From: Thiomicrorhabdus sp. zzn3
GTDB lineage: Bacteria; Pseudomonadota; Gammaproteobacteria; Thiomicrospirales; Thiomicrospiraceae
DNA: 64,000 bases
NCBI RefSeq assembly: GCF_029767755.1
Contig: NZ_JARUQS010000001.1
Span: forward strand, 248,001-312,000
Direction: 5' to 3'
Under the pieces are notes generated by a model, which searched no databases, was not told where the DNA came from, and saw nothing but the letters and a program-made list of their open reading frames with translations. A program made the translations under genes and the position numbers. Numbering within the stretch: the first letter of the stretch is position 1; the number at the start of each line of letters is the position of its first letter. Below are positions 9,285 through 25,191 of this stretch, in pieces.

Positions 9285-10735
9285 GCGTCTTCCTCCGTTA
9301 CTACAATCCAAGTGTCTTTTGATCCGCCCCCCTGGGAAGAGTTCACGACTAATGATCCCTTTTGTAATGCGACTCTCGTCAGTCCTCCGGCTGTTACATA
9401 AGATTTCTCTCCTTGAAGGATGAAAGGTCTCAGGTCAACGTGGCGAGGCTCTAGGCCTTCTTCGCATACCGTAGGAACGGTTGAGAGATTCAACGTAGGC
9501 TGTGCGATATAATTTCTGGGGTTATCTTGAATAAGTTTGGAAAAGGTCTCAATTTCCTCTTTTGAGGCTTTTGGGCCGATCAATAATCCGTATCCTCCCG
9601 ACTCATTGGCCGGTTTGACGACAAGTTCCGAAAGGTGCCCCAGCACGTAATCGCGGTCTTGTTTACGGCTGCACAGGTAGGTGGGAACGTTTTCAATGAT
9701 GGGCTCTTCATTTAAATAGAAGCGGATCATGTCGGGCACATAGGCATACACCACTTTGTCGTCGGCAACTCCGCATCCCGGTGCATTTGCGATAGCGACG
9801 TTGCCGGCTTTCCAAGCCCGCATTAAACCGGGAACACCTAGTGCAGAGTCTTTGCGAAAAACTTCCGGGTCAAGGAAGGCGTCGTCAATGCGGCGGTAAA
9901 TCACATCCACTCGCTTTAGGCCCTCAATATTGCGCATATAAACGCAGTTGTCTTCAAGAACGACAAGATCTGATCCTTCAACAAGTTCAGCCCCCATCTC
10001 ATGGGCGAGGTAGCTGTGTTCATAGTACGCGGAGTTGAAAATGCCCGGGGTCAACACCACGACTTCGGGATTGTCGCTCTCATGCGGGCATAGAGAGCGC
10101 AACATGGACAAGAGTTGCATGGGATATTGATCAATGGGAAGGATGTTCATGTCCTGAAACACTTCTGGCATGACCTGTTTCATCACCGCACGGTTTTCCA
10201 ACATGTAGGAGACTCCGGATGGAACTCTTAAATTATCTTCAAGTACATAGACGGTGCCGCTGGCGTCTCTTACCAAGTCTGAACCGCAGATGCAGGCCCA
10301 TGAGCTGTGCTTTAGGCGCATTCCTCGGCATTCGGGGCGGTAATCTTTTGAGGAAAGAATGACTTCCTTGGGGATGACTTTGGCTTTAAAGATTTGTTGA
10401 TCGTTATAAACGTCTTCAATAAACAGGTTGAGTGCTTTTAAGCGCTGTTTCAGGCCTGTGCTTATGCTCTGCCATTCTTGACTGCAAATGGTTCGGGGAA
10501 AAACATCAAAGGGCCAAAGGCGATCGATATTTCCATTGTCACTGTAAACGGTGAAGGAAATTCCCATTTGTGCGATAGCGGCTTCAGAGCTCTTTTGCAG
10601 TTCTTGAAAGGAGTTGAAAAAGGTATCGTTAAGTTGAGAGAACAGTTGTTTGGCGGATTCTCTGGGTTGATCCGGGGCGGCGAGCGCCTCATCGTAAAAA
10701 TTGTTTACCGGATAGTGGCGTAATGATGTGAGCAT
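9269..10735 (-). CDS. circularly permuted ATP-grasp protein (DUF404/DUF407)
   Basis: A 488-residue protein of the circularly permuted type 2 ATP-grasp family, predicted to form amide bonds between peptides or amino acids at the cost of ATP. Family marks include DVFPRTICSQEW near residue 80, YVLEDNLRVPSGVSYMLENR near residue 165, VDVIYRRIDDAFLDP near residue 275 and VVKPANESGGYGLLIGP near residue 370. In the wider family it works with alpha-E and often a transglutaminase-like peptidase and an Anbu-type hydrolase; the last two are not in this window. ATG 10735 is preceded by AAAGG; a GTG 9 bp upstream is less likely. It is the first gene of the minus-strand operon. Confidence 0.88.
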   Translation of the reverse strand: MLTSLRHYPVNNFYDEALAAPDQPRESAKQLFSQLNDTFFNSFQELQKSSEAAIAQMGISFTVYSDNGNIDRLWPFDVFPRTICSQEWQSISTGLKQRLKALNLFIEDVYNDQQIFKAKVIPKEVILSSKDYRPECRGMRLKHSSWACICGSDLVRDASGTVYVLEDNLRVPSGVSYMLENRAVMKQVMPEVFQDMNILPIDQYPMQLLSMLRSLCPHESDNPEVVVLTPGIFNSAYYEHSYLAHEMGAELVEGSDLVVLEDNCVYMRNIEGLKRVDVIYRRIDDAFLDPEVFRKDSALGVPGLMRAWKAGNVAIANAPGCGVADDKVVYAYVPDMIRFYLNEEPIIENVPTYLCSRKQDRDYVLGHLSELVVKPANESGGYGLLIGPKASKEEIETFSKLIQDNPRNYIAQPTLNLSTVPTVCEEGLEPRHVDLRPFILQGEKSYVTAGGLTRVALQKGSLVVNSSQGGGSKDTWIVVTEEDACFQE

Positions 10736-10757
10736 GGTCAACACCTTTGTTGTGGTT

Positions 10758-10771: not shown

Positions 10772-11054
10772 CAACAATTGTGCGATAGGTTTAAATTGTT
10801 TATTTTTCAATGTCTTAATTTTATTTGGGGCGGAGTAAAGGGCATGTGTTAACAAGCGTTTGAAACAAAATGGTGCGACGTGAGCATCCGTTTTATTTCA
10901 GTGATTCAAAGAGTTTGCCGTGTTGAAGCTTTTCTAAGCTGTAAAGAGAATGTTTTATTTTGGTGCAATTTTGTTTCTGTTTTTAGTTTATAGCAGAGTT
11001 GTTGTTTGTTAACTGTTTGAATATAAATTAAAAAATATATTTGGAACCGTTAAT
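10772..11054. other. divergent intergenic region
   Basis: This AT-rich stretch separates the minus-strand ATP-grasp operon from the plus-strand ABC transporter operon and must hold promoters for both. No gene, no guanidine-I riboswitch-like conserved block and no clear -35/-10 pair could be recognised by eye. Together with the flanking palindromes at 10758-10771 and 11055-11084, the non-coding gap is about 350 bp. Confidence 0.5.
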
Positions 11055-11084
11055 GTTATTACGAATTTCAATAATTGTAATAAC
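11055..11084. promoter_or_regulatory. 30-bp inverted-repeat operator, NikR-type geometry, before the ABC permease
   Basis: GTTATTAC-N14-GTAATAAC, perfect 8-bp arms with a 14-bp spacer. The same arms (TTATTAC/GTAATAA) and the same spacer length occur again at 24170-24199 before the substrate-binding-protein gene. The E. coli nik operator is GTATGAC-N14-GTCATAC, so total geometry is identical and five of seven half-site bases agree. A NikR-fold regulator is encoded downstream in this operon (13014-13460), making it the natural candidate to bind here. The repeat ends directly at a possible GTG start, so bound protein would block transcription or translation initiation. Confidence 0.8.
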
Positions 11085-12062
11085 GTGGTATCCAAAGATA
11101 TGAGTTTGTTGCCTAAAACATGGTTTGTTCCTAGAGCCCCATTAGATGTCCGCTCTCGTTATTTTTTAATATTTTCCAGCTTTCTTCTGCCGTTGTTTAT
11201 TTGGTCTTTAGTGAGTTATGTCCCTCAGTTATGGCACCCTAAGATCGAAATCACTGATTCCGGGGATGCCGGTTATTTAAGAGTGGGGATGCTGGTTGAT
11301 AAAGAAATTTTCTACCGAGAGGTGGAGAAAAAAGAATCGGAAGGCAAAGTGGCTCCGGAAGGATTTCCGTCTAATCCGGTTTATCTTCCAGCCCCTCATG
11401 AGGTGGCTACCGCGCTCTATACCGCCTTTACCACGCCGCCCAAAAGATCGAACGAACCTTGGTTGCACGAGAGCCTCCTGCACAGTATTCAAGTCATTGC
11501 CTGGGGATTTTTTTGGGCCGTTTTGATCGGCGTGCCTTTGGGTATTTTGGCCGGTACCTATGAAGCGTTTGCAAAGTTGATCGAGCCGTTTACCGAATTT
11601 TTCAGATACCTTCCCGCTCCCGCGTTCGGGGCTTTAGCCGTGGCTATTTTGGGTATTTATGACGCCCCCAAGATCGCGATCATTTTTATAGGAACCGTCT
11701 TTCAAATGATCCTGATCGTTGCGAACACGACCAGGAAATTAAGTCCGGCCTTGGTTGAGGCAGCGCTGACGCTGGGATGTAACGGGGCTTCCCTGCTAAA
11801 ACGCGTCATTGTTCCGGGTGTTCTGCCCGATTTGTATCGAGACATGCGAATTCTTTTGGGATGGGCATGGACCTATTTGATTGTCGCGGAATTGATTGGA
11901 ACCAGCTCTGGAATTACCTGGTTCATTACGCAACAAGCCCGATATAAGAACTTCGACAATGTGTTTGCAGCCATTTTGATCATTGGCGTGATCGGACTGG
12001 TAACGGATCTGATCCTGGCTTGGTTGGGCAGAAGACTCTTTCCTTGGAACAACAGTAAATAA
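11085..12062 (+). CDS. ABC transporter permease, urea/guanidine-carboxylase-associated (NrtB/TauC type)
   Basis: A 325-residue inner-membrane permease of the nitrate/taurine/sulfonate importer class. It has an N-terminal membrane helix (YFLIFSSFLLPLFIWSLVSY), a periplasmic segment of about 80 residues, then the conserved core with the EAA-type loop (EAALTLGCNGASLLKRVIVPG). It begins an operon with an ABC ATPase, a NikR-like regulator, DUF1989 proteins, carboxylase and allophanate hydrolase, so import of urea, guanidine or a close analogue is the likely job. No substrate-binding gene is adjacent; the best candidate is at 24211. The start is uncertain: GTG 11085 abuts the operator and ATG 11100 is the alternative, neither with a good ribosome binding site. 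Confidence 0.85.
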   Translation: MVSKDMSLLPKTWFVPRAPLDVRSRYFLIFSSFLLPLFIWSLVSYVPQLWHPKIEITDSGDAGYLRVGMLVDKEIFYREVEKKESEGKVAPEGFPSNPVYLPAPHEVATALYTAFTTPPKRSNEPWLHESLLHSIQVIAWGFFWAVLIGVPLGILAGTYEAFAKLIEPFTEFFRYLPAPAFGALAVAILGIYDAPKIAIIFIGTVFQMILIVANTTRKLSPALVEAALTLGCNGASLLKRVIVPGVLPDLYRDMRILLGWAWTYLIVAELIGTSSGITWFITQQARYKNFDNVFAAILIIGVIGLVTDLILAWLGRRLFPWNNSK

Positions 12063-12073
12063 AGGTTGACCCC

Positions 12074-13000
12074 ATGAATCACAATGAACATAACCCCAAT
12101 CGTCATCCTCTTGCTGATTTATATACTCCTGAAATTACAGCGCGTTTTGAGCGCATTCGGAATCGTCCGGTAGCGATTGAAGTAAATCAGCTGCGAAAAA
12201 CGTTTTACCACAAAAAACAGGAAAACCTGGTTCTTGGAGGGATCGATTTCAATGCGCACCAAAGAGAGTTTATGTGCGTTGTGGGGCCGTCCGGTTGCGG
12301 TAAGTCGACCTTGGCCAGAACGATTGCAGGCTTGGAAACGCATGACTCCGGAGACATGATAGTGGCTGGTTCTCATGTGAGTGGTCCTGGTCCGGATCGA
12401 GGCATGGTGTTTCAAAAATACACGCTTTTCCCGTGGATGTCCGTCAAGAAAAATGTCATGTTTGGTTTGGTGCAGTCCGGTCAAGACAAGGCGGATGCCG
12501 AGCGGGATGCACTGCAGTGGATCGATCTGGTGGGGCTGTCGAAGTATGCAGAATCTTATCCGCATCAATTGTCGGGCGGGATGCAGCAGCGTGTTGCCAT
12601 AGCAAGGGCTCTGGCGGCACAACCTAAGGTATTGTTGATGGATGAACCCTTCTCGGCATTGGATCCGCAAAATCGCGCCAAGATGCAGCAGTATCTTCTG
12701 GAAATCTGGCAAAACATCGATATTACCATTTTGTTTATTACCCACGACTTGGACGAAGCGGTCTATCTTTCCGATCGTGTTTTGGTTTTGGATGCGCACC
12801 CGGGAAGGGTCAGGGAAATATTGGAGGTACCGCTGCCAAGGCCGAGACCGATTGAGCTGATGTTGAGTGATGAGTTTCAGGCGACCAAACGTTATTTGGA
12901 GAGTCTTGTGCATCCTCCTATTACCCATCTGGATGTCGAAGAGAAACTGAGTATGGTGCAAATGGTGCCGGTGGATTCTGAAGTCCCTAACATTTTTTAG
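12074..13000 (+). CDS. ABC transporter ATP-binding protein (NrtD/TauB type)
   Basis: A 308-residue ATPase that powers the permease encoded 11 bp upstream. Walker A (GPSGCGKST, about residue 73), Q-loop (VFQKYTLFPW), signature (LSGGMQQR) and Walker B (VLLMDEPFSALD) with the switch histidine (FITHD) are all present. The C-terminal 50 residues beyond the ABC core are family-specific. AAGG precedes the ATG by 8 bp. Substrate is inferred from the downstream carboxylase. Confidence 0.92.
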   Translation: MNHNEHNPNRHPLADLYTPEITARFERIRNRPVAIEVNQLRKTFYHKKQENLVLGGIDFNAHQREFMCVVGPSGCGKSTLARTIAGLETHDSGDMIVAGSHVSGPGPDRGMVFQKYTLFPWMSVKKNVMFGLVQSGQDKADAERDALQWIDLVGLSKYAESYPHQLSGGMQQRVAIARALAAQPKVLLMDEPFSALDPQNRAKMQQYLLEIWQNIDITILFITHDLDEAVYLSDRVLVLDAHPGRVREILEVPLPRPRPIELMLSDEFQATKRYLESLVHPPITHLDVEEKLSMVQMVPVDSEVPNIF

Positions 13001-13013
13001 AATCGGTGAAACT

Positions 13014-13460
13014 ATGAATAAGTCAAACTTGGTCAGAGTAAGCGCTTCCATGCCGGCAAAAGTCCTAGAAGACTTAGATCGCTTGGTCAAGAGGCGAGGG
13101 TTTCAAAACCGTTCGGCTCTTCTGACGGAGATGATCCAAAAGGAAGTGGCGTTACAGAACCAAAAACACAGTGATGAGGTGATGGCCGGTACGGTGACGC
13201 TCTTTTATGACCATACCATTTTAGGGCTACAGCACAAACTTAACGAAATTAAACACAAGTATGTAGCGGAAATCATCTCCTCTACACAGATTCAATTGGT
13301 TGATCAACACACTTTGGAAGTCAATCTTCTGCAGGGATCAGCACAAACCCTGCAAATGATCAGTGACGAGATGATTGCCAATCGCGGTGTCAAAACCGGT
13401 AGCTTGTATTTGGTGAATTCGGTGATTCCACCGATTCAGAGTCAGAGCCATGCAAGTTGA
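13014..13460 (+). CDS. NikR-like ribbon-helix-helix/ACT regulator lacking most nickel ligands
   Basis: A 148-residue protein with the two-domain layout of NikR. An N-terminal ribbon-helix-helix (residues 7-45: VRVSASM, then LEDLDRLVKRRGFQNRSALL) aligns with the E. coli domain; the DNA-contacting strand has Arg8, Ser10 and Ser12 where E. coli has Arg3, Thr5 and Thr7. The ACT-like C-terminal domain ends with the conserved MIANRGVKTGSLYLV. Of the high-affinity nickel ligands, His87, His89 and Cys95 of E. coli align to Gln92, Gln94 and Thr100 here; only the His76 equivalent (His81) is kept. It should therefore sense something other than Ni(II), plausibly a pathway compound. It lies 13 bp after the ABC ATPase, and two NikR-geometry operators flank the regulon. 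The family call is firm; the ligand is unknown. Confidence 0.85.
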   Translation: MNKSNLVRVSASMPAKVLEDLDRLVKRRGFQNRSALLTEMIQKEVALQNQKHSDEVMAGTVTLFYDHTILGLQHKLNEIKHKYVAEIISSTQIQLVDQHTLEVNLLQGSAQTLQMISDEMIANRGVKTGSLYLVNSVIPPIQSQSHAS

Positions 13461-13490
13461 TTCATGTTTGATATGAGAAAAGAGGAATTT

Positions 13491-14234
13491 ATGGAAAATT
13501 CAGTTTCTAAAATTTGGTCTGAAACGATCCAGGCCGGCGCGCATTGGTCGGGCGTGATTCGTCGAGGCACCACCTTGAGAGTCAAGGATTTGCAAGGCGG
13601 AGCGAATGTCTCCATGTTGATGTACAACTTGGAAGTGCCGAGTGAACGCTACAACATGCCTGACACTTTAAAAGGACAGAAAACCGCGTTTTTAACGGCG
13701 CCTAATGTCTGTTATTCGGATATGGGGCGAGTCATGTGTTCGATTGTTGAAGACACCTGCGGTTGGCACGACACCATTGGCGGTATATCAAACGCTAAAT
13801 TGGTCGAAGAAAAATTCGGGCAGGCCTCCTATCAGGAAGTGCATAACGATTATTTTAAAAACGGTTACGACAGTTTAGTCAACGAGCTCGAAAAATGGAG
13901 TTTGCAAGCTAAGGATTTGGTGCCGAACATCAACTGGTTCAGCAAAATTCGAGTTGAAAATGACGGCGCCATGACGTTTGTGGAAGGCAACAGCCAGGCG
14001 GGCGATTACGTGGATCTGCGCTTTGAAATGGATTGTATCGTTGTGCTGTCAACCTGTCAGCATCCGCTTGATTCAGCCTCTAGTTATGCGCCAAAACCGA
14101 TTGAACTGACGGTGTCTAAATCGGCTCCGATGCAAAGTGATGACGCTTGCCTGCGCCACAAGCCTGAAAACGAGCGCGCTTTCTATAACACCGCTATCTA
14201 TTATGGAGAAAAGCCTTATGACTTTAGCCACTGA
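13491..14234 (+). CDS. DUF1989 protein, urea-carboxylase-associated (carboxyguanidine deiminase subunit-like)
   Basis: A 247-residue DUF1989 protein. Typical segments are [11 protein letters not shown] near residue 91, [16 protein letters not shown] near residue 115, PNINWFSKI near residue 145 and [24 protein letters not shown] near residue 170. Pairs of such proteins in carboxylase operons, long called urea-amidolyase-associated proteins 1 and 2, were shown in guanidine-degrading bacteria to form carboxyguanidine deiminase, which turns carboxyguanidine into allophanate and ammonia. I chose ATG 13491 (AGAGGA 5 bp upstream); the frame is open from 13464. It overlaps the paralogous next gene by 17 bp. 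Which of the two subunits it is was not determined. Confidence 0.85.
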
Positions 14235-14859
14235 AGAAATTATGCCAAGCCAGATTGTCCATAGAGAGACCGTTAAAGCGGGCGATCCTTGGATGCATGT
14301 GGTCAAAGCGGGAGAGACGTTCCGTATTGTGGATCTGGAAGGAAACCAGGCGGTGGATACGCTGTTTTATAACGCCAACAACACCGAAGAGCGTTACAGC
14401 GCGACCGACACCATCAAGTCGCAAGGGAACATTTATTTAACGACAGGCTCGGTATTGCGTTCTAACTTGGGCAATCCCATGCTGACGATTACCGCAGACA
14501 CTTGCGGGCGTCACGATACGTTAGGCGGCGCGTGCTCGGCGGAGAGCAATACGGTGCGTTACTCGATCGATAAACGTCATATGCACTCCTGTCGAGACAG
14601 TTTCCTGGTGGCGTTGGATAAGTGGGACCATGGCATGAGTAAGCGCGACCTGTCCAGCAACATCAACTTTTTTATGAACGTACCGGTTTCACCGGAGGGG
14701 CATTTGGATTTTGACGACGGCATTTCGGCGCCGGGACGTTTTGTGGAAATGAAGGCGGAAATGGATGTGCTGGTACTGGTTTCAAACTGCCCGCAACTCA
14801 ATAATCCATGTAACGGATACAACCCGACTCCGGTAGAAATGCTGATCTGGCAGGAGTAA
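14218..14859 (+). CDS. DUF1989 protein, second urea-carboxylase-associated subunit
   Basis: A 213-residue paralogue of the preceding protein. It carries [22 protein letters not shown] near residue 98, [11 protein letters not shown] near residue 120, [12 protein letters not shown] near residue 143 and [24 protein letters not shown] near residue 173. The shared CGxHDT motif with nearby conserved Cys and His suggests a common metal or catalytic site in the pair. ATG 14218 has a GGAG box at proper distance inside the upstream gene; the frame is open back to 14137. As part of a heteromer it probably deiminates the carboxylase product; this follows from work on guanidine operons, not from sequence alone. 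Confidence 0.85.
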
Positions 14860-14967
14860 CTCGGCCAGCCGCGGAGTTCAGGACGACCTGATAGCTTGAT
14901 GAGCACTCCAAGAACAAATTAAAAGTGGGACGACTCACTCGGCGATCAAGAGCAAAGAGAGATAAGA

Positions 14968-17900
14968 ATGTTTTCAAAAGTATTGGTGGCAAACCGTGGT
15001 GCGATTGCAACACGCATCATGCGCACGTTGAAAAAAATGAATATTCGTTCGGTGGCATTGGCATCCGAAGTGGATCAGGGATCGTTGCATGTCCAGATGG
15101 CGGATGAGGTCATTCTGCTGAAAGGCGCCACGGCGACTGAAACTTACCTGAATGTTCCTTTAATCCTTGAAGAAGCACTTGAATTAGGCGTGGAGGCGAT
15201 TCATCCGGGGTACGGTTTTTTGAGCGAAAACGACTCTTTTGCCGAGATGTGTGAGGCGGCTGGGATTACGTTTATCGGGCCACGTCCGCAACATATTCGA
15301 GAATTCGGTTTAAAACACACGGCACGTGAGCTGGCGATTAAAAGCAGCGTGCCTCTGTTGCCGGGGTCGGATCTGCTGGATGATGTGGCGCATGCACTGC
15401 AAGAAGCGGAGCGGGTCGGTTATCCTGTAATGCTCAAGAGTACCGCCGGAGGAGGCGGAATCGGCATGCAGAAATGCCACTCTGCGGCAGAGTTGTCAGA
15501 AGCCTTTGAGCAGGTGGTGCGTCTGAGTCAGAATGCCTTCGCCCAAAACGGCGTGTTTATCGAGAAATTCGTCACCAATGCACGCCATATTGAAATCCAG
15601 ATTTTCGGTGATGGCCAGGGCAATGTGGTGTCGTTTGGGGAGCGTGACTGTTCCTTGCAGCGCCGTAATCAGAAGGTGGTGGAAGAGACGCCGGTGGTCA
15701 ATATCGATCGTGCGCTGGTAGACGCGATGGAAGCGGATGCTGTCCGTTTAGGCAAGCTGGTTTCTTATCAATCGGCGGGTACGGTTGAGTATGTTTATGA
15801 TGCGGATACCAATGAATATTACTTCCTTGAAGTGAACACCCGTTTGCAGGTGGAGCACGGCATTACCGAGACGGTGCGTGATGTGGATCTGGTCGAGTGG
15901 ATGCTGGAAGTGGCCTATCACCAGCGCTTCCCGGAAGCAGTCAAGCCGGCTAAAGGCCATTCGATTGAAGTGCGGGTGTATGCCGAAGATCCGGCCAAGA
16001 ATTTCCAGCCCAGCAGCGGCAAGGTGACCCAGTGGCAAATGCCGGAAAATGCCCGCGTAGACACCTGGGTGTCGACCGGACAGGAGGTCAGTTCATTTTA
16101 CGACCCGATGCTGTCAAAAATCATTGTCAGTGCCGAGAATCGCGAAGCGGCAATTCAGGAGCTGCAGAAAGCGCTCGAGTCGACCCGAATTTACGGTTTT
16201 GAAACCAATGTCCGTTACTTGACCTCGCTCTCCTACGATAACGGTTTTATCAAAGGAAGCGAGCTTTACACCCGTTATTTGGCGGACTTTGCACCGCAGC
16301 CTTCGACGGTAGAGGTCTTGAATCCGGGAACCCACTCTATGCTTGTCAGCTATCCCGGGCGCGTGGGACACTGGGATGTCGGGGTACCGCCATCCGGGCC
16401 GATGGATGCCTTGGCGCACCGGTTGGCAAACCGCTGTTTGCAGAATGTTCAAGAAGCCTCCACCATTGAAATGACGGTTTCCGGCGTCAGTCTCAAATTC
16501 AATCGAGATACGGTGATCTGTTTGACCGGGGCTGATATTCAGCCGACCCTGGATAAGCAGCCGATAGCCATGTGGCAACCGGTTGCCGTCAAAGCGGGTC
16601 AAGTACTGAAATCCAAAGTGATTAAAGAGGTGGGGCAGCGCGCGTATCTTGCGATCTCCGGCGGCTTTGACGTGCCGGAGTATATGGGCAGTGAAACCAC
16701 CTTCTCTCTTGGTGGATTTGGCGGACATGGTGGCCGTTTATTGCGTGCCGGTGATGTTTTGCCGATCCATGAAATGAACCAGTCAAGCGGCGAGTTAGCG
16801 CCGATTCCTGAAGCGTTGATTCCGAGTTATGCCAATCAGTATGAGATTGCCGTGACCTACGGGCCGCAGGGGGCGCCGGATTTTTTCACCGACAAAGACA
16901 TTGAAACCTTCTTTTCGGCCGAATGGAAAGTGCACTATAACTCGAGTCGAACCGGGATCCGTCTGATTGGTCCCAAGCCGGAGTGGGCGCGTGACGACGG
17001 TGGAGAAGCTGGATTGCACCCGTCGAATATCCACGACAATCCCTATGCGATCGGAGCGATCGACTTTACCGGCGACATGCCGGTGATTTTGGCCCAGGAC
17101 GGCCCGAGTCTGGGCGGTTTTGTCTGCCCGGCCACCATCATTCAGGCCAACCAGTGGATCATGGGGCAGTTGCGTCCTGGCGATAAAGTGCGCTTTAAAG
17201 CGGTGTCGATTGAAACCGCTGAAGCGCAGATGAAGGCGTTTGAGCGTTGGGTGGAGAATTATGAACAGCCTGAGGATTTGAGGTTTCTGGCTAACCCGAC
17301 GCAAGAGTCGTGCATCTTGCTGGAGTTGGATGAAACCCAGCACGAAGTGGGCATTCGTTATCGCCGCTCCGGCGACAGCAACCTGTTGATCGAATTTGGC
17401 AAAATGGAGCTGGACATCGCCCTTCGTTTCCGCGGCCAAGTGCTGTATGAAAAGCTTAAAGAGTTGAATTGGTCTTGTATTATCGATTTGACCCCGGGTA
17501 TTCGCAGTCTTCAGGTGCATTACGATGCCAAACAGATCTCGCAGATGGATTTAGTCAACCGCATTCAGGAAGTGGAAGCCGAATTGTCCAGCGGTGGGGA
17601 TATGGTGGTGAAAAGCCGCATTGTGCATTTGCCGTTGTCTTGGGACGACCCGAGCACGCAACTGGCGATTGACAAGTACACCCAGTCGGTGCGCCCGGAC
17701 GCCCCATGGTGTCCGAGCAATATTGAATTCATTCGCCGCATTAACGGTTTGGACTCGATTGAAGAGGTCAAAAAAATCGTGTTCGATGCCAATTACCTGG
17801 TCATGGGCTTGGGGGATGTCTATCTCGGCGCGCCGGTGGCCACGCCATTGGATCCGCGTCACCGCCTGGTCACTACCAAATATAATCCGGCGCGTACCTG

Positions 17901-18579
17901 GACCCCGGAAAATGCAGTGGGGATCGGCGGCGCCTATATGTGTATTTACGGGATGGAAGGCCCGGGTGGCTACCAGTTTGTCGGGCGTACCATACAGATT
18001 TGGAACGCCTACCATCAAACCAAGGTATTCACCCAAGAAAAGCCTTGGCTGCTCGAGTTTTTTGATCAGATCAAGTTCTATCCGGTGTCGCATGAAGAGC
18101 TGGAACAGGCGCGTAAAGATTTTCCACTGGGCCGCTTTGACATCAAAATCGAAGAGACGGAATTGTCGTTGACGGAATACCAGGCCTTCCTGGAACGTGA
18201 ACAGGAATCCATAGAGCGGTTCCAAGGCACGCAGCAAAAGGCGTTTGAAGAAGAGCGTCAGCGTTGGCAAGAGAGTGGGCAGGCGAACTTTGAATCGGAC
18301 AGCGGTGAGGATGAAATTATCCAAGAACCGGAAGCGGAGGTGCCGGAAGGGTTCGAAGCGGCGCTGTCCCCGATTACCGGCAGTGTGTGGAAAATTCCGG
18401 TTCAGGTCGGCGATCAGGTTCAGGAAGGGGATGTCATTGCCAGTCTGGAGACCATGAAAATCGAAATCCACATTGAAGCCGAGGCCGATGGCGTCGTCAC
18501 CGAAATTTTGGTGGGCGAGGGCGATCTGATTCAAAACGGACAACGTTTAATGATTCTGGAGCTGAACCATGCATCTTAA
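14968..18579 (+). CDS. biotin-dependent urea/guanidine carboxylase
   Basis: A 1203-residue single-chain carboxylase. Order: biotin carboxylase (residues 1 to about 450, starting MFSKVLVANRGAIATRIMRT, with EKFVTNARHIEIQIFGD and EVNTRLQVEHGITE), carboxyltransferase built from KipA-like (about 470-780) and KipI-like (about 800-1000) halves, a linker with coiled character, and a C-terminal biotinyl domain with Lys1164 in ETMKIEI. Such enzymes carboxylate urea to allophanate or guanidine to carboxyguanidine, using ATP, bicarbonate and biotin. The two DUF1989 genes just upstream favour guanidine as substrate, although urea cannot be excluded. The diagnostic residue in the carboxyltransferase site was not located by eye. 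The stop overlaps the allophanate hydrolase start. Confidence 0.93.
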   Translation: MFSKVLVANRGAIATRIMRTLKKMNIRSVALASEVDQGSLHVQMADEVILLKGATATETYLNVPLILEEALELGVEAIHPGYGFLSENDSFAEMCEAAGITFIGPRPQHIREFGLKHTARELAIKSSVPLLPGSDLLDDVAHALQEAERVGYPVMLKSTAGGGGIGMQKCHSAAELSEAFEQVVRLSQNAFAQNGVFIEKFVTNARHIEIQIFGDGQGNVVSFGERDCSLQRRNQKVVEETPVVNIDRALVDAMEADAVRLGKLVSYQSAGTVEYVYDADTNEYYFLEVNTRLQVEHGITETVRDVDLVEWMLEVAYHQRFPEAVKPAKGHSIEVRVYAEDPAKNFQPSSGKVTQWQMPENARVDTWVSTGQEVSSFYDPMLSKIIVSAENREAAIQELQKALESTRIYGFETNVRYLTSLSYDNGFIKGSELYTRYLADFAPQPSTVEVLNPGTHSMLVSYPGRVGHWDVGVPPSGPMDALAHRLANRCLQNVQEASTIEMTVSGVSLKFNRDTVICLTGADIQPTLDKQPIAMWQPVAVKAGQVLKSKVIKEVGQRAYLAISGGFDVPEYMGSETTFSLGGFGGHGGRLLRAGDVLPIHEMNQSSGELAPIPEALIPSYANQYEIAVTYGPQGAPDFFTDKDIETFFSAEWKVHYNSSRTGIRLIGPKPEWARDDGGEAGLHPSNIHDNPYAIGAIDFTGDMPVILAQDGPSLGGFVCPATIIQANQWIMGQLRPGDKVRFKAVSIETAEAQMKAFERWVENYEQPEDLRFLANPTQESCILLELDETQHEVGIRYRRSGDSNLLIEFGKMELDIALRFRGQVLYEKLKELNWSCIIDLTPGIRSLQVHYDAKQISQMDLVNRIQEVEAELSSGGDMVVKSRIVHLPLSWDDPSTQLAIDKYTQSVRPDAPWCPSNIEFIRRINGLDSIEEVKKIVFDANYLVMGLGDVYLGAPVATPLDPRHRLVTTKYNPARTWTPENAVGIGGAYMCIYGMEGPGGYQFVGRTIQIWNAYHQTKVFTQEKPWLLEFFDQIKFYPVSHEELEQARKDFPLGRFDIKIEETELSLTEYQAFLEREQESIERFQGTQQKAFEEERQRWQESGQANFESDSGEDEIIQEPEAEVPEGFEAALSPITGSVWKIPVQVGDQVQEGDVIASLETMKIEIHIEAEADGVVTEILVGEGDLIQNGQRLMILELNHAS

Positions 18580-20392
18580 TTCCAAAGCGCAAAACCGATA
18601 TCACCTGGGCATTCAGACGCTGCACGCGCAGTATCAAAGCGGCGAGTTAACCCCGCAAATGTTGTTTGAGTTTTTGCACCATCAGGCTGAGGCGTTGCCG
18701 GAATACAACATCTGGATTCGCCTGCTTACCATGCAGGAAATACAGGGATATCTGGATCGTTTGGGCGAGTTTGATCCTGATGCCAAGCCCCTGTGGGGCA
18801 TTCCGTTTGCGATTAAAGACAACATCGATTTGGCCGGCATTGAGACCACCGCGGCGTGTCCCTCTTTTGCGTATCACGCGCAGGAGGACGCCGAGGTCGT
18901 GCGCCTGTTGATCGAAGCCGGTGCAATTCCTTTAGGCAAAACCAATATGGACCAGTTTGCAACCGGCCTGGTCGGAACCCGTTCACCGTATGGGGTTTGC
19001 CATAACAGTTTTCATTTCGATTACATTTCCGGTGGCTCCAGTTCCGGTTCCGCGGTGGCGGTGGCCATGGGATTGTGCAGTTTCTCTTTGGGAACCGATA
19101 CCGCCGGGTCAGGACGAGTGCCGGCGGCGTTTAATAATCTGATCGGTTTGAAACCCTCCAAGGGGCTGTTGAGTACGCGCGGTGTGGTGCCGGCGGTTCG
19201 TTCACAGGATGTGGTGTCCGTTTTTGCGCTTGACAGCGGGGATGCCAACACGGTGTTTGAGGTGGCTGCCAAGCAGGATTTGGCCGACGCTTACAGCCGT
19301 TCGGAAGGCGCATTGTCGGTGCCCGCGTGGGGCGACAAACCGGTCATTGGCATCCCGGATCAACCGAGCCGCTATTTTGCCGGCGATGAACTGGCGCAGG
19401 TGAATTTTGAAACGGCGGTGAATCGTATTAAATCGCTGGGGTATGAGGTTAAGGAGCTGGATTTCACGCCGTGGCTGGAAACCGCCAAATTACTGTACGG
19501 CGGCGCCTGGGTGGCCGAACGCTATGCGGCGATTAAGGCATTCATTCAAAGTGACCCGCAGGACATGGATCCTACGGTTGGCGGCATTATTCAATCGGCT
19601 TCCGAACTGGGTGCGGTTCAGGCGTTTGAAGGCATGTATCAGCTGCAAGAGGCGATCAGAGCCACCCAATCGGTTTGGCAGCAGGTTGACTGCATAGTGA
19701 CGCCGACGGTGCCGTCAATCTTTACCATTGAAGAGTTGCAAGCCGAACCGGTTGCGCTTAATAGCGAGTTGGGCACCTATACCAACTTCATGAACCTGCT
19801 GGATTACAGTGCGGTGGCGATGCCGAGCGGGTTCCGTGAGGATAATCTGCCGGCCGGGATTACGGTGTTTGCTCCGGCGGGAAGTGATCGCAAACTCCTC
19901 GACTTAAGCCGTCAGTGGCATCCGCAGTTTGTGAAGTATGCCGCGGCCAACGGCAGCGTGCTCAAAGCCAATGATCCGATTGAAAGCCGGCAGGCCATTC
20001 CTCTGGCGGTCGTCGGCGCGCACTTGACCGGCTTTCCGTTGAACGGCCAATTGATTGAGCGTGGCGCCAAGTTGCTCAAAGTGACGAAAACCGCGCCGAA
20101 ATACCAATTTTTTGAGCTGAGCAGTCGGCCGATTCTGAAGCCCGGATTGGTCAAGGTCGGCGCAGATCATGGCGGCGCTTCGATTGAACTGGAAGTCTGG
20201 TCGATGCCGAAAGAACATTTGGGCAGCTTTTTGGCGTTGATTCCTTCGCCGTTAGGCTTGGGGAAAGTGGAGCTGGAAGACGGTTCGGAAGTGATCGGCT
20301 TTATTTGCGAGCCGTCGGGGATTGAAGGCGCCAGAGAAATCACCGAACACGGCGGCTGGCGCAACTGGATGAAGGTCCGTCCTCAAGAGTAA
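18569..20392 (+). CDS. atzF: allophanate hydrolase
   Basis: A 607-residue enzyme that hydrolyses allophanate to CO2 and two ammonia. Residues 1 to about 440 form an amidase-signature domain: the catalytic Lys is in FAIKDNIDLAG, and the Ser pair is in ISGGSSSGSAVAVA and LGTDTAGSGRVPAAF. The C-terminal domain (about 470-607, with FPLNGQLIERGAKLL and PLGLGKVELEDGSEVIGFICEP) is the AtzF-type domain that handles the N-carboxyurea decarboxylation step. It overlaps the carboxylase gene by 11 bp, so product can be passed on at matched levels. A perfect 28-bp palindrome 25 bp after the stop probably ends the operon. Confidence 0.93.
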   Translation: MHLNSKAQNRYHLGIQTLHAQYQSGELTPQMLFEFLHHQAEALPEYNIWIRLLTMQEIQGYLDRLGEFDPDAKPLWGIPFAIKDNIDLAGIETTAACPSFAYHAQEDAEVVRLLIEAGAIPLGKTNMDQFATGLVGTRSPYGVCHNSFHFDYISGGSSSGSAVAVAMGLCSFSLGTDTAGSGRVPAAFNNLIGLKPSKGLLSTRGVVPAVRSQDVVSVFALDSGDANTVFEVAAKQDLADAYSRSEGALSVPAWGDKPVIGIPDQPSRYFAGDELAQVNFETAVNRIKSLGYEVKELDFTPWLETAKLLYGGAWVAERYAAIKAFIQSDPQDMDPTVGGIIQSASELGAVQAFEGMYQLQEAIRATQSVWQQVDCIVTPTVPSIFTIEELQAEPVALNSELGTYTNFMNLLDYSAVAMPSGFREDNLPAGITVFAPAGSDRKLLDLSRQWHPQFVKYAAANGSVLKANDPIESRQAIPLAVVGAHLTGFPLNGQLIERGAKLLKVTKTAPKYQFFELSSRPILKPGLVKVGADHGGASIELEVWSMPKEHLGSFLALIPSPLGLGKVELEDGSEVIGFICEPSGIEGAREITEHGGWRNWMKVRPQE

Positions 20393-20417
20393 GAGTACGG
20401 GAGGCCTGAAACGGACC

Positions 20418-20445
20418 AGGCCTGTTCAAAATTTTGAACAGGCCT
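20418..20445. terminator. 28-bp perfect palindrome, probable terminator
   Basis: AGGCCTGTTCAAAA and its exact complement follow the allophanate hydrolase stop by 25 bp. The stem ends in the iterated octamer CAGGCCTG (20417-20424) and is followed only by a short CTTTG, so termination may be weak. It separates the carboxylase operon from the desaturase-like gene. Confidence 0.55.
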
Positions 20446-20479
20446 CTTTGACATCAATCTTCGCTTAAGAGACGTTGCG

Positions 20480-21493
20480 ATGAACTCTTTTTCCACTCTA
20501 TTTCGTTATGAAGATGCTTTGAGGCCCAATGTGCTGGCGTTGGGTTACGTTCTGTTCACCTATGGTTTGGGGTTTGCAGGGCTGATGGCGGAATCGCTCT
20601 GGCTCAATCTTGGAGCAGTCTTGGTGCTGGCGCACTCGATGGTGATGGCCGCTTACTTCGTTCACGAATGCGCCCATGAAAGCGTCTTCAAGGAGCGGCG
20701 CTATAACCGCCGGCTAAGCGAAGTGCTGTTGTGGGTATGCGGTTCGAGTTACAGCGATTTTGATGACATCAAACGCAAACACAACCGTCACCACAGTGAC
20801 CGGGCGGACATTGTCTCGTTTGATTATCGAACCCGGTTAGTGCGTTATCCACGTCTGCTCAAGCTGATTCAGTGGCTGGAATGGGCGTATATTCCGGCGC
20901 TGGAGGTGTTGATGCACGCTTTGGTGATCGTATTGCCGTTTGTGAAGCCGAGCCGCCAGTCCCGGCGCAAGCGTGTCGTTTTCTATCTGCTGTTTAGAGG
21001 CGGTTTTTTCGTTGCCATCGCCTGGGTCTCCCCAGCCGCCTTGTTGTGGTATGCCTTGGCGTATCTGCTGTTTCTGACGGTCATGCGCTTTATGGATGTT
21101 CATCAGCATACTTACGAACTGTACGAGACTCTGGAGCAGAAGCGCGGGCCGGAAGCGCGGCTGCGGGATGGCGATTTTGAGCACCGTAATACCTATTCCA
21201 ATTTGCTTTCCACCCGTTATCCCTGGCTGAATCTGCTGGTTCTCAACTTCTGTTACCACAACGTGCATCATGACCAGCAGGCTCAGCCCTGGTATCGGTT
21301 GCCGGCATTGCATGCCCAGAAATACGGTAATAGGCATCAGCAGGTATTGAGCTTTAAAAACCTGTTGAGCAGTTACCACCGCTACCGCGTGCCGCGTATT
21401 CTCAACTCCGATCCGGTTGATCTGCCGGTGTATAAAGATCGGGGCAAGACCTTTATCGGTGTGGACGGCGTTTCATTTTTAACGGCTCATTAA
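20480..21493 (+). CDS. membrane fatty-acid-desaturase-like di-iron enzyme
   Basis: A 337-residue integral membrane protein with the three histidine clusters of the FA_desaturase superfamily: HECAHE (near residue 62), KHNRHHSD (near 103) and CYHNVHHD (near 262), plus an extra VHQHTYE near 210. Hydrophobic helices lie at about 15-60, 150-170 and 175-205. The family includes acyl-lipid desaturases and also hydroxylases, so an oxidation of a lipid or another hydrophobic substrate is expected. It starts a four-gene block with a hydrolase, a TIM-barrel protein and an exporter. No link to the nitrogen operon is proven beyond position. Confidence 0.8.
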   Translation: MNSFSTLFRYEDALRPNVLALGYVLFTYGLGFAGLMAESLWLNLGAVLVLAHSMVMAAYFVHECAHESVFKERRYNRRLSEVLLWVCGSSYSDFDDIKRKHNRHHSDRADIVSFDYRTRLVRYPRLLKLIQWLEWAYIPALEVLMHALVIVLPFVKPSRQSRRKRVVFYLLFRGGFFVAIAWVSPAALLWYALAYLLFLTVMRFMDVHQHTYELYETLEQKRGPEARLRDGDFEHRNTYSNLLSTRYPWLNLLVLNFCYHNVHHDQQAQPWYRLPALHAQKYGNRHQQVLSFKNLLSSYHRYRVPRILNSDPVDLPVYKDRGKTFIGVDGVSFLTAH

Positions 21494-21513
21494 CGGTTGA
21501 AAGGAAGGTAGTG

Positions 21514-22296
21514 ATGACTCAGGTGACGAAGTTTTGGCCGATTTTGACCGGCACCCACCGTTATGAAAAAACGCTGTCTACCCGCGGGCGGGGCGCCGGC
21601 GAGTATATCGATGCGCCGATTCTGGCGTATTTGATCGAGACCCGCAATGGCCGCATTCTGTTTGATGTGGGCTGTGACTACCACAAGATCGCGGATACAC
21701 AGCTGCGCCAACACTACTATGAAAATGAAGCGTTTCCGTTTGGCCCGCCGCAAATGAGCGAAGAGCAGAGGTTGCCGAATAAATTGGAAATCTTGGGACT
21801 TTCGCCGTTGGATGTGGATGTCGTATTTTGCAGTCATCTGCATTTCGACCATGCAGGAGGCCTGTGCGAATTCTGTCATGCCGATGTCCATGTGCATCAA
21901 CGCGAATTGCAAGCCGCTCAGGAACCGGCGGATGAAGCCTATTTTGCATCGGACGTTGCCTTGCCGTTGAACTGGAAAGTTCAGACCGGCGAGTATGATC
22001 TGGTTGAGGGGGTACGCGCGATTGAGAGCCCCGGGCATACCGCGGGGCATATGTCGATGTTGATTGAACTGCCAAAAGGCCGGCCGATTCTGTTGGCCGG
22101 CGATGCCGCAGATTTGCAGGAGAACATCGATCAGGAAGTGGCGCCGGGACTCTGCTGGCAGGACAAGGAGGTGCTGGCGGTCGCCAGTATCCGCAAGCTC
22201 AAGCAGTTGAGCCGTGAACACCGGGCGCAACTCTGGCCGAACCATGATCAAACGTTCTTTGAGCGCCACAATCCTTTTCCGAATTTTTACGAGTAA
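21514..22296 (+). CDS. metallo-beta-lactamase-fold hydrolase, lactonase-like
   Basis: A 260-residue metallo-beta-lactamase-fold protein. The di-metal motif HLHFDH is in VVFCSHLHFDHAGG near residue 105, with further ligands in SPGHTAGH (near 173) and LLAGDAAD (near 197). This pattern and length fit the N-acyl homoserine lactonase branch, but the branch contains many hydrolases with other substrates. ATG 21514 follows AAGGAAGG at 5-6 bp; a GTG directly before it is less likely. It is separated by only 3 bp from the following TIM-barrel gene, so the two are cotranscribed. Confidence 0.8.
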   Translation: MTQVTKFWPILTGTHRYEKTLSTRGRGAGEYIDAPILAYLIETRNGRILFDVGCDYHKIADTQLRQHYYENEAFPFGPPQMSEEQRLPNKLEILGLSPLDVDVVFCSHLHFDHAGGLCEFCHADVHVHQRELQAAQEPADEAYFASDVALPLNWKVQTGEYDLVEGVRAIESPGHTAGHMSMLIELPKGRPILLAGDAADLQENIDQEVAPGLCWQDKEVLAVASIRKLKQLSREHRAQLWPNHDQTFFERHNPFPNFYE

Positions 22297-22299
22297 CCC

Positions 22300-23145
22300 A
22301 TGCAATTAAAACTGTTTAAAACGCTGTGGGGAAACCGCTTGCCGATTGAGAGCGTGATTAAGAAAGCGTTGAATCAAGGGTTCGACGGCCTGGAGGGTCA
22401 GGCGCCACAATCAAAAGGTGAGGCGTCGCGGTGGCACGGTATTTTGCATGACGCCAAACTCGACTATATTGCCGAAGTGGTGACGGGCGGCGATTATGTA
22501 CCAAATGCCAGCGCCTCGCCGCAAAATCATCTTGAGGATTTGCGCCAGGGAATCGAACGCAGTTTGGAGCTGAATCCACTGTTTATTACCTGCATTACCG
22601 GCTATGACGCCTGGCCGGAACCCGAGAGCATCGCCTACTTTGAAGCGGCAATGAAATTGGCGCAGGAGTACGACGTTTCAGTTTGCTTTGAAACTCATCG
22701 CAGCCGCAGTCTGTTCAACCCCTGGGTGACGCAGCGTATTACTGAGGCGTTGCCGGAGATGCGTTTGACGTTGGACATCAGTCACTGGTGCGCGGTCTGT
22801 GAACGTTTAATGGATTCGGAAGAGGGCGTTATCCGCCGTTTCCTGCCGCAAGTTGCTCATATTCATGGCCGAGTAGGCTATGACCAGGGGCCTCAAGTCC
22901 CCCATCCGGCCGCTCCGGAGTATGAATCGGCTCTGAAATCGCATCAGACCTTTTGGGAGCAGGTATGGCATCATCATCGCTCCTCCGGTTTGGCATTGAC
23001 GACCCTGACGCCCGAATTCGGTCCGGACGGTTATCTGCATACCCTTCCTTTCACGCAAATGCCAGTGGCGGATCTGGATGAGGTCAATCATTGGATGGCC
23101 GGCTGTGAGCGCCAGCATTTTGAGCGTTTTTGCCACTGCTTATAA
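22300..23145 (+). CDS. sugar-phosphate isomerase/epimerase-like TIM barrel
   Basis: A 281-residue protein resembling the xylose-isomerase-like TIM-barrel family (AP_endonuc_2). Visible elements are IKKALNQGFDGLEGQ, SVCFETHRSR, LTLDISHWCAV and VAHIHGRVGY, which would supply Glu, Asp and His metal ligands at the barrel mouth. Members isomerise or epimerise sugars and polyols, or cleave related compounds. The substrate is not known. It lies 3 bp after the lactonase-like gene. Confidence 0.75.
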   Translation: MQLKLFKTLWGNRLPIESVIKKALNQGFDGLEGQAPQSKGEASRWHGILHDAKLDYIAEVVTGGDYVPNASASPQNHLEDLRQGIERSLELNPLFITCITGYDAWPEPESIAYFEAAMKLAQEYDVSVCFETHRSRSLFNPWVTQRITEALPEMRLTLDISHWCAVCERLMDSEEGVIRRFLPQVAHIHGRVGYDQGPQVPHPAAPEYESALKSHQTFWEQVWHHHRSSGLALTTLTPEFGPDGYLHTLPFTQMPVADLDEVNHWMAGCERQHFERFCHCL

Positions 23146-23180
23146 CCTCTCTTAATTTCTCTTAAATTTTCAGGTTTGTT

Positions 23181-24035
23181 ATGGAAACTCGAGCGATTTC
23201 GGCATTGTTTGCAACCTCTATTTTATGGGGGTTCAGTTGGTTGCCTTTAAAGTACTTCCATCAAATGGGGTTTGATGGACTTTCATTGACGCTATTTGTT
23301 TATGCCCTGATGTTTGTGTTTATCGCACCTTTTTTAGTGAAAAGACGACAGGAATGGCAAGGTGCTTGGAAACCTTTGTTTGGCATCGCTCTGTTGGGGG
23401 GAGGGGCTCAACTCGCGTTTAACAGCGCGTTGATTTACGGGGATGTGATTCGTGTGATGGTGCTGTTTTATTTGTTGCCGCTATGGGGTGTTTTGGGCGG
23501 GAAACTGTTTTTGAATGAGACCATTGATCGCTGGCGTTGGTTGGGGATGGGATTGGCGATCAGTGGCGCCTTTTTGGTGATTGGTGGCATGCATGCTTTG
23601 ATTGATCCTCCGACCCTGGTTGATTTGCTTGCGCTCTTGGCTGGGTTTTTCTTTGCCATGAATAATATCGTATTCCGTGTGGCGCAAGAGGTGTCCATCC
23701 GATCGAAGCTGGGGGCAATGTTTCTGGGGGCGTGGGTTCTGTCTGCGGTAACCGTATTGGTTGTCGGCCAACCGTTGGAAGTCAATGTCGGTATGGAGGC
23801 ATGGATGGCATTAGTGCTCTATGCCCTGGTGTGGATGATGGTCGCCAATTTGGGCACGCAATGGGCGGTAACCCATCTTGAAGCAAGCCGCTCTTCGGTG
23901 ATTATTATTGTGGAACTGGTTACCGCGGTGCTTTCCGCAAGCCTGATTTTGGGGGATAGCATGACGTCTTGGGAAAAAATCGGGGCGGGGATGATTTTGA
24001 TTTCAGCGTTTTTGGAAGCTAGAAAAGCAAAATAG
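23181..24035 (+). CDS. EamA/DMT-family transporter
   Basis: A 284-residue inner-membrane protein with ten hydrophobic helices and two EamA repeats; the first begins LFATSILWGFSWLPLKY and the second LLAGFFFAMNNIVFRV. Drug/metabolite transporters of this type export amino acids, bases or other small metabolites, occasionally import. It lies 35 bp after the TIM-barrel gene and probably moves the substrate or product of that block. Direction and substrate cannot be told from sequence. Confidence 0.85.
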   Translation: METRAISALFATSILWGFSWLPLKYFHQMGFDGLSLTLFVYALMFVFIAPFLVKRRQEWQGAWKPLFGIALLGGGAQLAFNSALIYGDVIRVMVLFYLLPLWGVLGGKLFLNETIDRWRWLGMGLAISGAFLVIGGMHALIDPPTLVDLLALLAGFFFAMNNIVFRVAQEVSIRSKLGAMFLGAWVLSAVTVLVVGQPLEVNVGMEAWMALVLYALVWMMVANLGTQWAVTHLEASRSSVIIIVELVTAVLSASLILGDSMTSWEKIGAGMILISAFLEARKAK

Positions 24036-24147
24036 TGCACCTTTATGGTGCTTGTGCTTGAATTTGTTTGTCTTTATTTCGATCAAGACGCGACGAATAA
24101 TGTTTTATATTGATTAACTTATTGAAATTTAAGGTTTATTATATTTT

Positions 24148-24164
24148 TTGGCACGTGGAGTGAT
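24148..24164 (+). promoter_or_regulatory. sigma-54-like promoter element (weak)
   Basis: TTGGCACG-N4-GTGAT resembles the sigma-54 consensus TTGGCACG-N4-TTGCW. The -24 half is perfect but the -12 half lacks the invariant GC. If real, it would tie the binding-protein operon to nitrogen control through NtrC. It is offered as a candidate only. Confidence 0.25.
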
Positions 24165-24169
24165 TATAT

Positions 24170-24199
24170 ATTATTACCATTTAGGTAAATCGTAATAAT
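24170..24199. promoter_or_regulatory. 30-bp inverted-repeat operator before the substrate-binding protein
   Basis: ATTATTAC-N14-GTAATAAT, perfect 8-bp arms and 14-bp spacer, matching the copy at 11055-11084 in arms and spacing while the spacers themselves differ. It ends 1 bp before the Shine-Dalgarno AGGAGG of the binding-protein gene, so a bound regulator would mask the start region. The shared dyad predicts that the separated binding protein and the permease/ATPase operon are controlled by the same NikR-like protein. Confidence 0.8.
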
Positions 24200-24210: not shown

Positions 24211-25191
24211 ATGATGTTTGGTAGTAAGAAGGTGTTGGGTGCACTGGCTGGGCTGTTTTTATCTGCTCAGGCCATGTCTGTTAGCGCAGAACCTTTAAAG
24301 ATTGGTTACAGTGATTGGCCAGGCTGGGTAGCGTGGGAAGTGGCTGTTGAGAAAAACATGTTTGAAAAAGAAGGGGTGGATGTTCAGTTTGAGTGGTTCG
24401 ACTACGTCGCCTCAATGGATGCTTTTGCGGCCGGCCAAATCGATGCGGTCAGTATGACGAACGGTGATGCGTTAGTGACTGGGGCAACGGGTGCGAAGAG
24501 CGTGATGGTCATTATCAATGACTACAGTAATGGTAATGACATGGTGATCGGTGCTCCAGGAATCAGTTCCGTGAAAGATCTTAAAGGGAAGAAAATCGGG
24601 GTCGAAGTTGGTTTTGTTGGCCATCTGTTGCTGTTGAATGCGTTGGAAAAAAACGGTTTGAGCGAAGCGGATGTTGAGCTGGTGAACGTGCCGACCAACG
24701 AAACACCTCAAGTGTTGGCTTCTGGCCAGGTGGATGCGATTGTGGCATGGCAGCCTAACTCTGGTGCGGCGTTGCAATTGGTGCCAGGTTCATCGGCCAT
24801 TTATACGAGTGCGAACGAACCGGGTCTGATTTACGACGTGTTGGCAGTTTCTCCAAGTAGCTTAGCGGCACACCGCGCTGAATGGGAAAAGGTCGCTAAG
24901 GTTTGGTATAAAGCGGTAGATTTTATTAAAGATCCGGCGACGGCGGATGAAGCGATTGCGATTATGGCGTCACGTGTGGGTCTTCCTCCCGAGGAGTATA
25001 AAACCTTCGTAAAAGGCACCAAGATCCTGACGTTAGAAGAGGCCAAGGCTCATTATAAAAAAGCAGATGGATTTGAATCATTGTTTGGTTCATCGAAAAT
25101 TTCTGATGACTTCAATGTGAACAACAAGGTGTATGACGCGCCACAGGATATTGATTCTTATATCGATCCTTCCATTACGATGGGAATGTAA
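24211..25191 (+). CDS. periplasmic substrate-binding protein of an ABC importer (NMT1/SsuA-like)
   Basis: A 326-residue exported protein. The signal peptide (about residues 1-26, ending [10 protein letters not shown]) is followed by an NMT1/taurine-type binding fold: [34 protein letters not shown] (in two pieces), [20 protein letters not shown] and [13 protein letters not shown]. This type serves NrtB/TauC permeases, and such proteins are regularly encoded in urea/guanidine carboxylase operons. Here it sits about 12 kb from the permease but shares its operator. AGGAGG precedes ATG 24211 and a second ATG at 24214. The mature protein shows no lipobox. Confidence 0.88.

Follow-up and report, generated by a model that had tools for sequence, protein, structure and literature searches.

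A NikR-like protein without the nickel ligand set as the probable reader of two matching operators in a guanidine-type nitrogen assimilation locus of Thiomicrorhabdus

A stretch of 64,000 nucleotides from Thiomicrorhabdus sp. zzn3 (assembly GCF_029767755.1, contig NZ_JARUQS010000001.1, positions 248,001 to 312,000), referred to here as the window, raises the question of how an ATP-binding cassette (ABC) importer encoded in two separate operons is regulated, and which signal its regulator perceives. A dyad of 30 bp precedes each part of the importer: operator 1, GTTATTAC-N14-GTAATAAC, is an exact palindrome at positions 11055–11084, 15 bp 5′ of the ATG of the permease gene, and operator 2, ATTATTAC-N14-GTAATAAT, lies at positions 24170–24199, 5′ of the gene of the substrate-binding protein. 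On inspection of the sequence, both consist of perfect 8-bp inverted arms with 14 bp between them and have unlike spacers. The first operon also encodes a NikR-like protein, named here NikRL (13014–13460, plus strand), with a ribbon-helix-helix and a NikR_C domain. Comparison of related genomes makes it probable that NikRL reads both dyads and that a nickel-blind NikR thereby gates the assimilation of guanidine-type nitrogen.

A preliminary description of this DNA had reported the two dyads at these positions, with common arms, the same 14-bp spacing and differing spacers, and had likened their layout to the operator of Escherichia coli NikR; both statements hold. According to PMC7055735 (the articles cited here by PMC number are drawn on in excerpt), this operator is GTATGA-N16-TCATAC, which 7-bp arms with a 14-bp spacer fit, so that the geometry of the dyads is NikR-like with changed arms. 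The permease start given there, position 11085, is 15 bases too early: the gene very probably starts with ATG 11100, because a start at GTG 11085 would abut the dyad with no space left for ribosome binding, and because in relatives the ATG stands behind the dyad. In the genome of 2,366,806 bp on 6 contigs, TTATTAC-N14-GTAATAA occurs exactly only twice, as operators 1 and 2, and the search for additional exact copies that had been set beforehand yielded none. A single copy with one mismatch lies within an open reading frame of 161 amino acids, which read by eye encodes CoaD. Allowing up to two mismatches, 14 places were found compared with 19 for a reversed-pattern control, so near-perfect copies alone carry the signal; the shorter core TATTAC-N14-GTAATA, with 12 fixed bases, gave 2 exact matches and its control none. 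The window itself contains two exact copies and two with three mismatches. Since shuffled windows have on average 1.36 matches with up to three mismatches, and 4 of 100 reach the window total of four, it is the exactness of the dyads that counts.

The window's own family, represented by 62 genomes, allows the dyads and the regulator to be followed together. NikRL is encoded in 24 of these genomes and an orthologue of the binding protein in the identical 24; the NikR_C domain is likewise found in these 24 only, in one copy each (in the window genome NikRL is the sole NikR_C protein found), so that no canonical NikR was found in the family genomes. Each NikRL genome contains at least two exact copies of TATTAC-N14-GTAATA, with a hand-tallied total of 58 sites and 21 for the control, and in the 38 genomes without NikRL the corresponding totals are 18 and 19. 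The dyad stands 5′ of the permease gene in all 23 usable loci, window included, and 5′ of the binding-protein gene in the same proportion (23/23); two loci were left out of these counts, L110, for which no upstream sequence was taken, and L045, whose contig ends before the permease start. In the 22 relatives with upstream DNA, the 12-base core before the permease is exact in 21 and has one mismatch in the remaining one. Even where the binding-protein cluster is inverted, as in several family genomes, the dyad is still found 5′ of the binding-protein gene; two paralogous binding proteins (26 and 29% identity) have no dyad 5′ of their genes. Fourteen further regions of the family contain an extra dyad 5′ of the creatininase-GSIII genes in five cases and 5′ of a desaturase gene in four, three of the latter with one mismatch.

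Beyond the family, a scan with the NikRL protein alignment gave 224 loci, the best 80 of which were named and analysed; their titles refer to Gamma-, Beta- and Alphaproteobacteria and Verrucomicrobia, and several come from genomes also contained in the family set, so that the family counts overlap. Ten had no upstream DNA. In the 70 usable loci, a spacer-14 dyad upstream of importer genes has an exact 12-base core in 41, at most one mismatch in 63 and at most two in all 70, and at one mismatch neither any other spacer from 8 to 20 nor any of 197 permuted palindromes was found in more than one locus. An origin of the dyads by chance was ruled out by the genome count, the reversed-pattern control, the spacer scan and the permuted palindromes. 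Outside the family, all 60 loci with both genes have the binding-protein gene directly 5′ of that of the permease. The NikRL regulon, if true, would account for an importer divided between two operons. In five of the first six distant gammaproteobacterial loci, the genes of the binding protein, permease, ATPase, NikRL and carboxylase are co-directional in one cluster, once with an inserted paralogous binding-protein gene, and the sixth, L145, has the importer, GSIII and NikRL and no carboxylase match. In four of the six, the binding protein is preceded by a dyad with no more than one mismatch. Eight distant NikRL genomes were searched for exact copies of the 12-base dyad: six have one, one has two and one has none, with 0 to 2 matches for the controls. 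Loci around 22 other NikR genes, used as a control, contained three dyads with up to two mismatches in two loci, one of them (with one mismatch) inside the NikR match itself. Other 7-bp N14 palindromes stand just 5′ of canonical NikR genes, GTATGAT in L138 and GTAACAC in L123, both picked from many chance palindromes. On this comparison, the two dyads of the window would almost certainly represent one operator type and one regulon. The regulon split over two operons that the preliminary description had predicted thus gains support from the lack of a further exact copy and from conservation upstream of orthologous operons in the family and in distant relatives, and its assignment to the protein at 13014–13460 from the co-occurrence of regulator, binding protein and dyad in the family genomes.

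In the Pelagicoccus loci L186, L190, L219 and L229 the dyad is located directly 5′ of the NikRL gene, and in the Methylobacterium loci L222, L223, L230 and L237 between NikRL and divergent importer genes, which suggests autoregulation. Given its position, within the presumed transcribed leader or close to it, the dyad might also be read by another factor or act as an RNA hairpin, with NikRL as a bystander. This is very improbable, since the excess of dyads tracks the presence of NikRL and a dyad stands 5′ of NikRL itself in loci of these two genera; moreover, the spacers are not conserved, the stem would be rich in A-U pairs, and the fixed N14 fits the NikR geometry. Binding of the dyads by NikRL is, on these grounds, very likely.

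Is NikRL then an ordinary nickel sensor? Both of its domains exceed the Pfam cut-offs (RHH_1 28.5 bits, NikR_C 68.4 bits), and its AlphaFold model, with a mean pLDDT of 79.3 and a pTM of 0.55, supports a NikR fold while giving no information on the ligand: in a structure search with this model NikR structures were best, and all 50 matches listed were NikR. Together with the operator geometry, this would suit a nickel-responsive NikR that controls a nickel importer. However, the nickel ligands His76, His87, His89 and Cys95 of NikR (PMC7055735) are not retained as a set. The four positions read H-Q-Q-T in 24/24 members of the window's family, with glutamine in place of His87 and His89, and H-H-H-C occurs in none of the 80 NikRL loci, compared with all 22 control NikR rows (21 class-level NikR proteins and the P. 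horikoshii NikR); the residue tables do not include L132, and for one class-level match there was no locus. Cys95 is replaced in 80/80 loci, by Thr, Met, Val, Ile, Leu or Ser. NikRL also remains below all five NCBIfam NikR cut-offs, for example with 102.2 versus 105 for PRK04460 and 71.5 versus 175.45 for TIGR02793. In a midpoint-rooted tree, for which the tool issued a long-branch warning, 91 NikRL rows and the 22 H-H-H-C rows form the two sides of one branch with a support of 100/100, which places NikRL outside the canonical NikR clade. The importer is of the NitT/TauT type and adjoins guanidine-pathway genes. A nickel regulon was ruled out by the ligand residues and the gene content, and an ordinary nickel-responsive NikR at this locus is extremely improbable; NikRL very probably does not respond to nickel. 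Another metal could be considered as the signal, coupling metal supply to nitrogen use, because 17 of the 80 loci keep three histidines (HHHT) and 16 read Y-H-H-M, so that residual metal binding is possible elsewhere in the clade. For NikRL as a whole this is improbable: the operator and the gene set persist across the 80 loci although the four positions vary among 19 patterns, and the HQQT set of the window has no obvious metal site.

The dyads stand at promoter-like sequences that bear on how NikRL might act. GG-N10-GC is the signature of sigma-54 promoters, and in the window a sigma-54-like −24/−12 element, GG-N10-GT, at 11043–11056 (plus strand) runs into operator 1, and a second, GGCACG...GA with a good −24 part, at 24150–24163 (plus strand) ends 8 bp 5′ of the TATTAC of operator 2. 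Across the comparison, GG-N10-GC lies beside the dyad in 89 of 106 promoters (21/23 family permease, 12/23 family binding-protein and 56/60 other promoters), with a chance rate of 3% in mononucleotide shuffles, a figure to be read with the fact that related loci are not independent. Among the family permease promoters the spacing is identical in 18 of 23, the dyad following immediately after the −12 element, so the operator would cover the start site, as would suit a repressor. Other binding-protein promoters (e.g., those of L195, L196, L207 and L226) have gaps from −12 to dyad that cluster at 8 and 15 bases, and the position of the operator relative to the start site is therefore not fixed. 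The genome encodes RpoN and a full-score NtrC. An NtrC-like site, TGCACC-TTTAT-GGTGCT, with one mismatch to the consensus, was found at 24036–24052; sites with up to two mismatches occur in 7 of the 24 regions from the family, where permuted controls average 0.14 and reach at most 3, and in 10 of 60 other loci, where they average 1.17 and reach at most 21. From the arrangement of these elements, we lean towards NikRL being a repressor at a sigma-54 promoter.

What the regulon serves is indicated by its genes, all on the plus strand. Operator 1 is followed by the ABC permease (11100–12062; BPD_transp_1, with SaoP, TauC and SsuC as best NCBIfam matches, all under cut-off), the ABC ATPase (12074–13000; best matches SaoA and NrtCD, under cut-off), NikRL, UAAP1 (13464–14234; TIGR03425) and UAAP2 (14203–14859, exact start uncertain; TIGR03424), which we take to be the subunits of carboxyguanidine deiminase, a biotin-dependent urea/guanidine carboxylase (14968–18579) and an allophanate hydrolase (18569–20392, by profile matches). 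The last four exceed their NCBIfam cut-offs. Operator 2 is followed by the NMT1/SsuA-type substrate-binding protein (24211–25191), the partner of permease and ATPase, a creatininase-family amidohydrolase (25355–26134) and a type III glutamine-synthetase-like ligase, GSIII (26146–27507). Asp699 of the window carboxylase aligns with Asn1330 of the K. lactis urea amidolyase (structure 5i8i), presumably the position that decides between guanidine and urea carboxylase. Asp marks guanidine carboxylases and Asn urea carboxylases (PMC12186494). Of the 80 named loci, 64 contain a carboxylase match (54 of 69 outside the family), and the residue at this position is Asp in 60/60 readable carboxylases.

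Riboswitches offer a second view of the signal; Rfam models were run on the window, on 8 of the 23 family loci, on 23 of the 69 loci outside the family and on 8 carboxylase regions. Under strict filters, with no more than 51 candidates for guanidine-I and 80 for guanidine-II scored per genome, no guanidine-I riboswitch was found in the 62 family genomes. A guanidine-II riboswitch lies just 5′ of the carboxylase in 10 of the 23 scanned non-family loci; L191, an eleventh case, has guanidine-I as well as guanidine-II on a carboxylase operon that is divergent, the only place at which guanidine-I was found in these 23. Three near relatives of the window have guanidine-II between the allophanate hydrolase and the desaturase gene, and in four other relatives the latter gene is preceded by the dyad. 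The window contains no riboswitch at the Rfam gathering score, and at a lax threshold the region 20250–20600 gave only sub-threshold matches to a hairpin-bearing small RNA family and a microRNA family. At 20418–20445, in the gap between the allophanate hydrolase and the desaturase-like gene where the three near relatives have guanidine-II, there is a perfect hairpin, AGGCCTGTTC/GAACAGGCCT.

Guanidine is favoured as the signal because the dyad occupies the place that guanidine-I has in Klebsiella and Raoultella (PMC12186494) and because guanidine-II is retained inside many of the operons. We tentatively suggest guanidine itself as the ligand, and it is conceivable that NikRL senses guanidine as a protein and, as the switch at the entry to the pathway, stands in for the guanidine-I riboswitch. 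With the same regulon and regulator, the ligand could instead be whatever the binding protein, creatininase and GSIII act on, such as a substituted guanidine or an amide, creatinine-like or other, or it could be a downstream metabolite; this is a less likely but substantial possibility. Each of the three importer components is present in 61 of the 69 non-family loci, with GSIII in 52, the creatininase in 48 and the carboxylase in 54, and in all eight genomes followed the unlinked carboxylase regions have guanidine-I and no dyad. Opposed to this are the frequency of the carboxylase in the NikRL loci and its uniform Asp type, as well as the guanidine-II riboswitches inside these loci and 5′ of the desaturase gene in the three near relatives.

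The reading in which NikRL gates guanidine-type nitrogen assimilation would work as follows. The ribbon-helix-helix domain would still read the 7+14+7 palindrome, and the C-terminal domain would do without the nickel ligand set. The regulon would allow guanidine, or a close guanidino compound, to be taken up and broken down as a nitrogen source by means of the binding protein, permease, ATPase, deiminase, guanidine carboxylase, allophanate hydrolase, creatininase-family hydrolase and GS-III-like ligase. By occupying the operator where transcription starts, NikRL would repress, NtrC and sigma-54 would supply the drive under nitrogen starvation, and a guanidino ligand, perhaps bound at the former nickel place, would release NikRL. 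The sign would be opposite to that of NikR, where nickel promotes DNA binding. In such an exchange, planar guanidinium would take the place of square-planar Ni(II), and Gln, Asn and Thr at the site that once bound the metal would accept its hydrogen bonds.

Several observations weigh against this reading. At two mismatches, spacers other than 14 reach up to 13 loci (compared with 70/70 for spacer 14), and among the six distant loci the sole near-match of L141 lies 5′ of UAAP1, and L145 has none. The −12 elements of the window, GG-N10-GT and GG-N10-GA, are imperfect, GG-N10-GC is absent from 11 of the 23 family binding-protein promoters, the NtrC sites are weak and only partly supported, and the HHHT and Y-H-H-M sets retain histidines in part of the clade. 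Sixteen of the 80 loci lack a carboxylase match, and in the eight of these that were followed the carboxylase is encoded elsewhere in the genome. The prediction that the dyad would also be found at these unlinked operons failed: in 8/8 the carboxylase region (17 kb, up to two mismatches allowed) has no dyad and has a guanidine-I riboswitch, NikRL stays with the importer genes, and in three of the eight a second importer is located in the riboswitch region. The core regulon is therefore narrowed to the importer genes and their neighbours. Since a dyad 5′ of UAAP1 was found in only 1 of 61 loci, the carboxylase genes would mostly be reached, if at all, by read-through, and this, together with the position of NikRL apart from the carboxylase in the eight unlinked genomes, makes a related guanidino compound possible as the signal.

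Some neighbouring genes complete the picture of the locus. The associated genes between the two operons (20480–24035, plus strand) encode fatty-acid-desaturase-like, AHL-lactonase-like MBL and TIM-barrel proteins and an EamA transporter. This four-gene set often accompanies the cluster in relatives, in some with the dyad or a guanidine-II riboswitch 5′ of its first gene, and it perhaps serves the breakdown of substituted guanidines. An Alpha-E domain protein and a circularly permuted ATP-grasp protein are encoded divergently from operator 1 on the minus strand (8340–10744), apparently unconnected to the regulon.

Known guanidine receptors as of 2025 comprise riboswitches, transporters and enzymes only, and guanidine-binding transcription factors are named as something that future research may reveal (PMC12186494). 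A search of the open PMC literature, by titles and abstract openings, on regulators of the NikR, guanidine and urea-carboxylase type gave no description of NikRL, which is not proof of its absence; the excerpts of PMC12153308 and PMC12508155 contain nothing bearing on the regulator, and PMC2667541 mentions a supplementary NikR tree that may include NikRL members. The NikRL family offers a concrete and widespread candidate for a guanidine-binding transcription factor whose operator is already defined. If the proposed reading is true, a metal sensor has been turned into a regulator for nitrogen compounds, and the case would warn that a protein may have a NikR_C domain and still be nickel-blind.

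The locus can be compared with four known cases. The NtrC/sigma-54 nitrogen regulon resembles it in the −24/−12-like elements at the dyads of relatives and in the encoded NtrC and RpoN, but differs in that NikRL loci have, close to the start site, an additional operator specific to the pathway, and that their NtrC sites are only partly supported. The curated family that best names a urea-carboxylase-linked binding protein, TIGR03427 (ABC_peri_uca, putative urea ABC binding protein), gives 147.5 bits with the window protein, against a cut-off of 333.9. With NikR of E. coli, H. pylori and P. horikoshii, NikRL shares the ribbon-helix-helix and NikR_C fold, a palindromic operator of the same geometry and the link to an ABC importer; unlike them, it has lost the nickel ligands, forms a separate clade and accompanies guanidine-pathway instead of nickel genes, at loci with sigma-54-like promoters and with arms TATTAC versus GTATGA. 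In gene content the locus resembles the guanidine-I and -II riboswitch operons of Klebsiella and Raoultella, which also combine importer, deiminase, guanidine carboxylase and allophanate hydrolase (PMC12186494); where these operons carry guanidine-I, the NikRL loci carry a DNA dyad.

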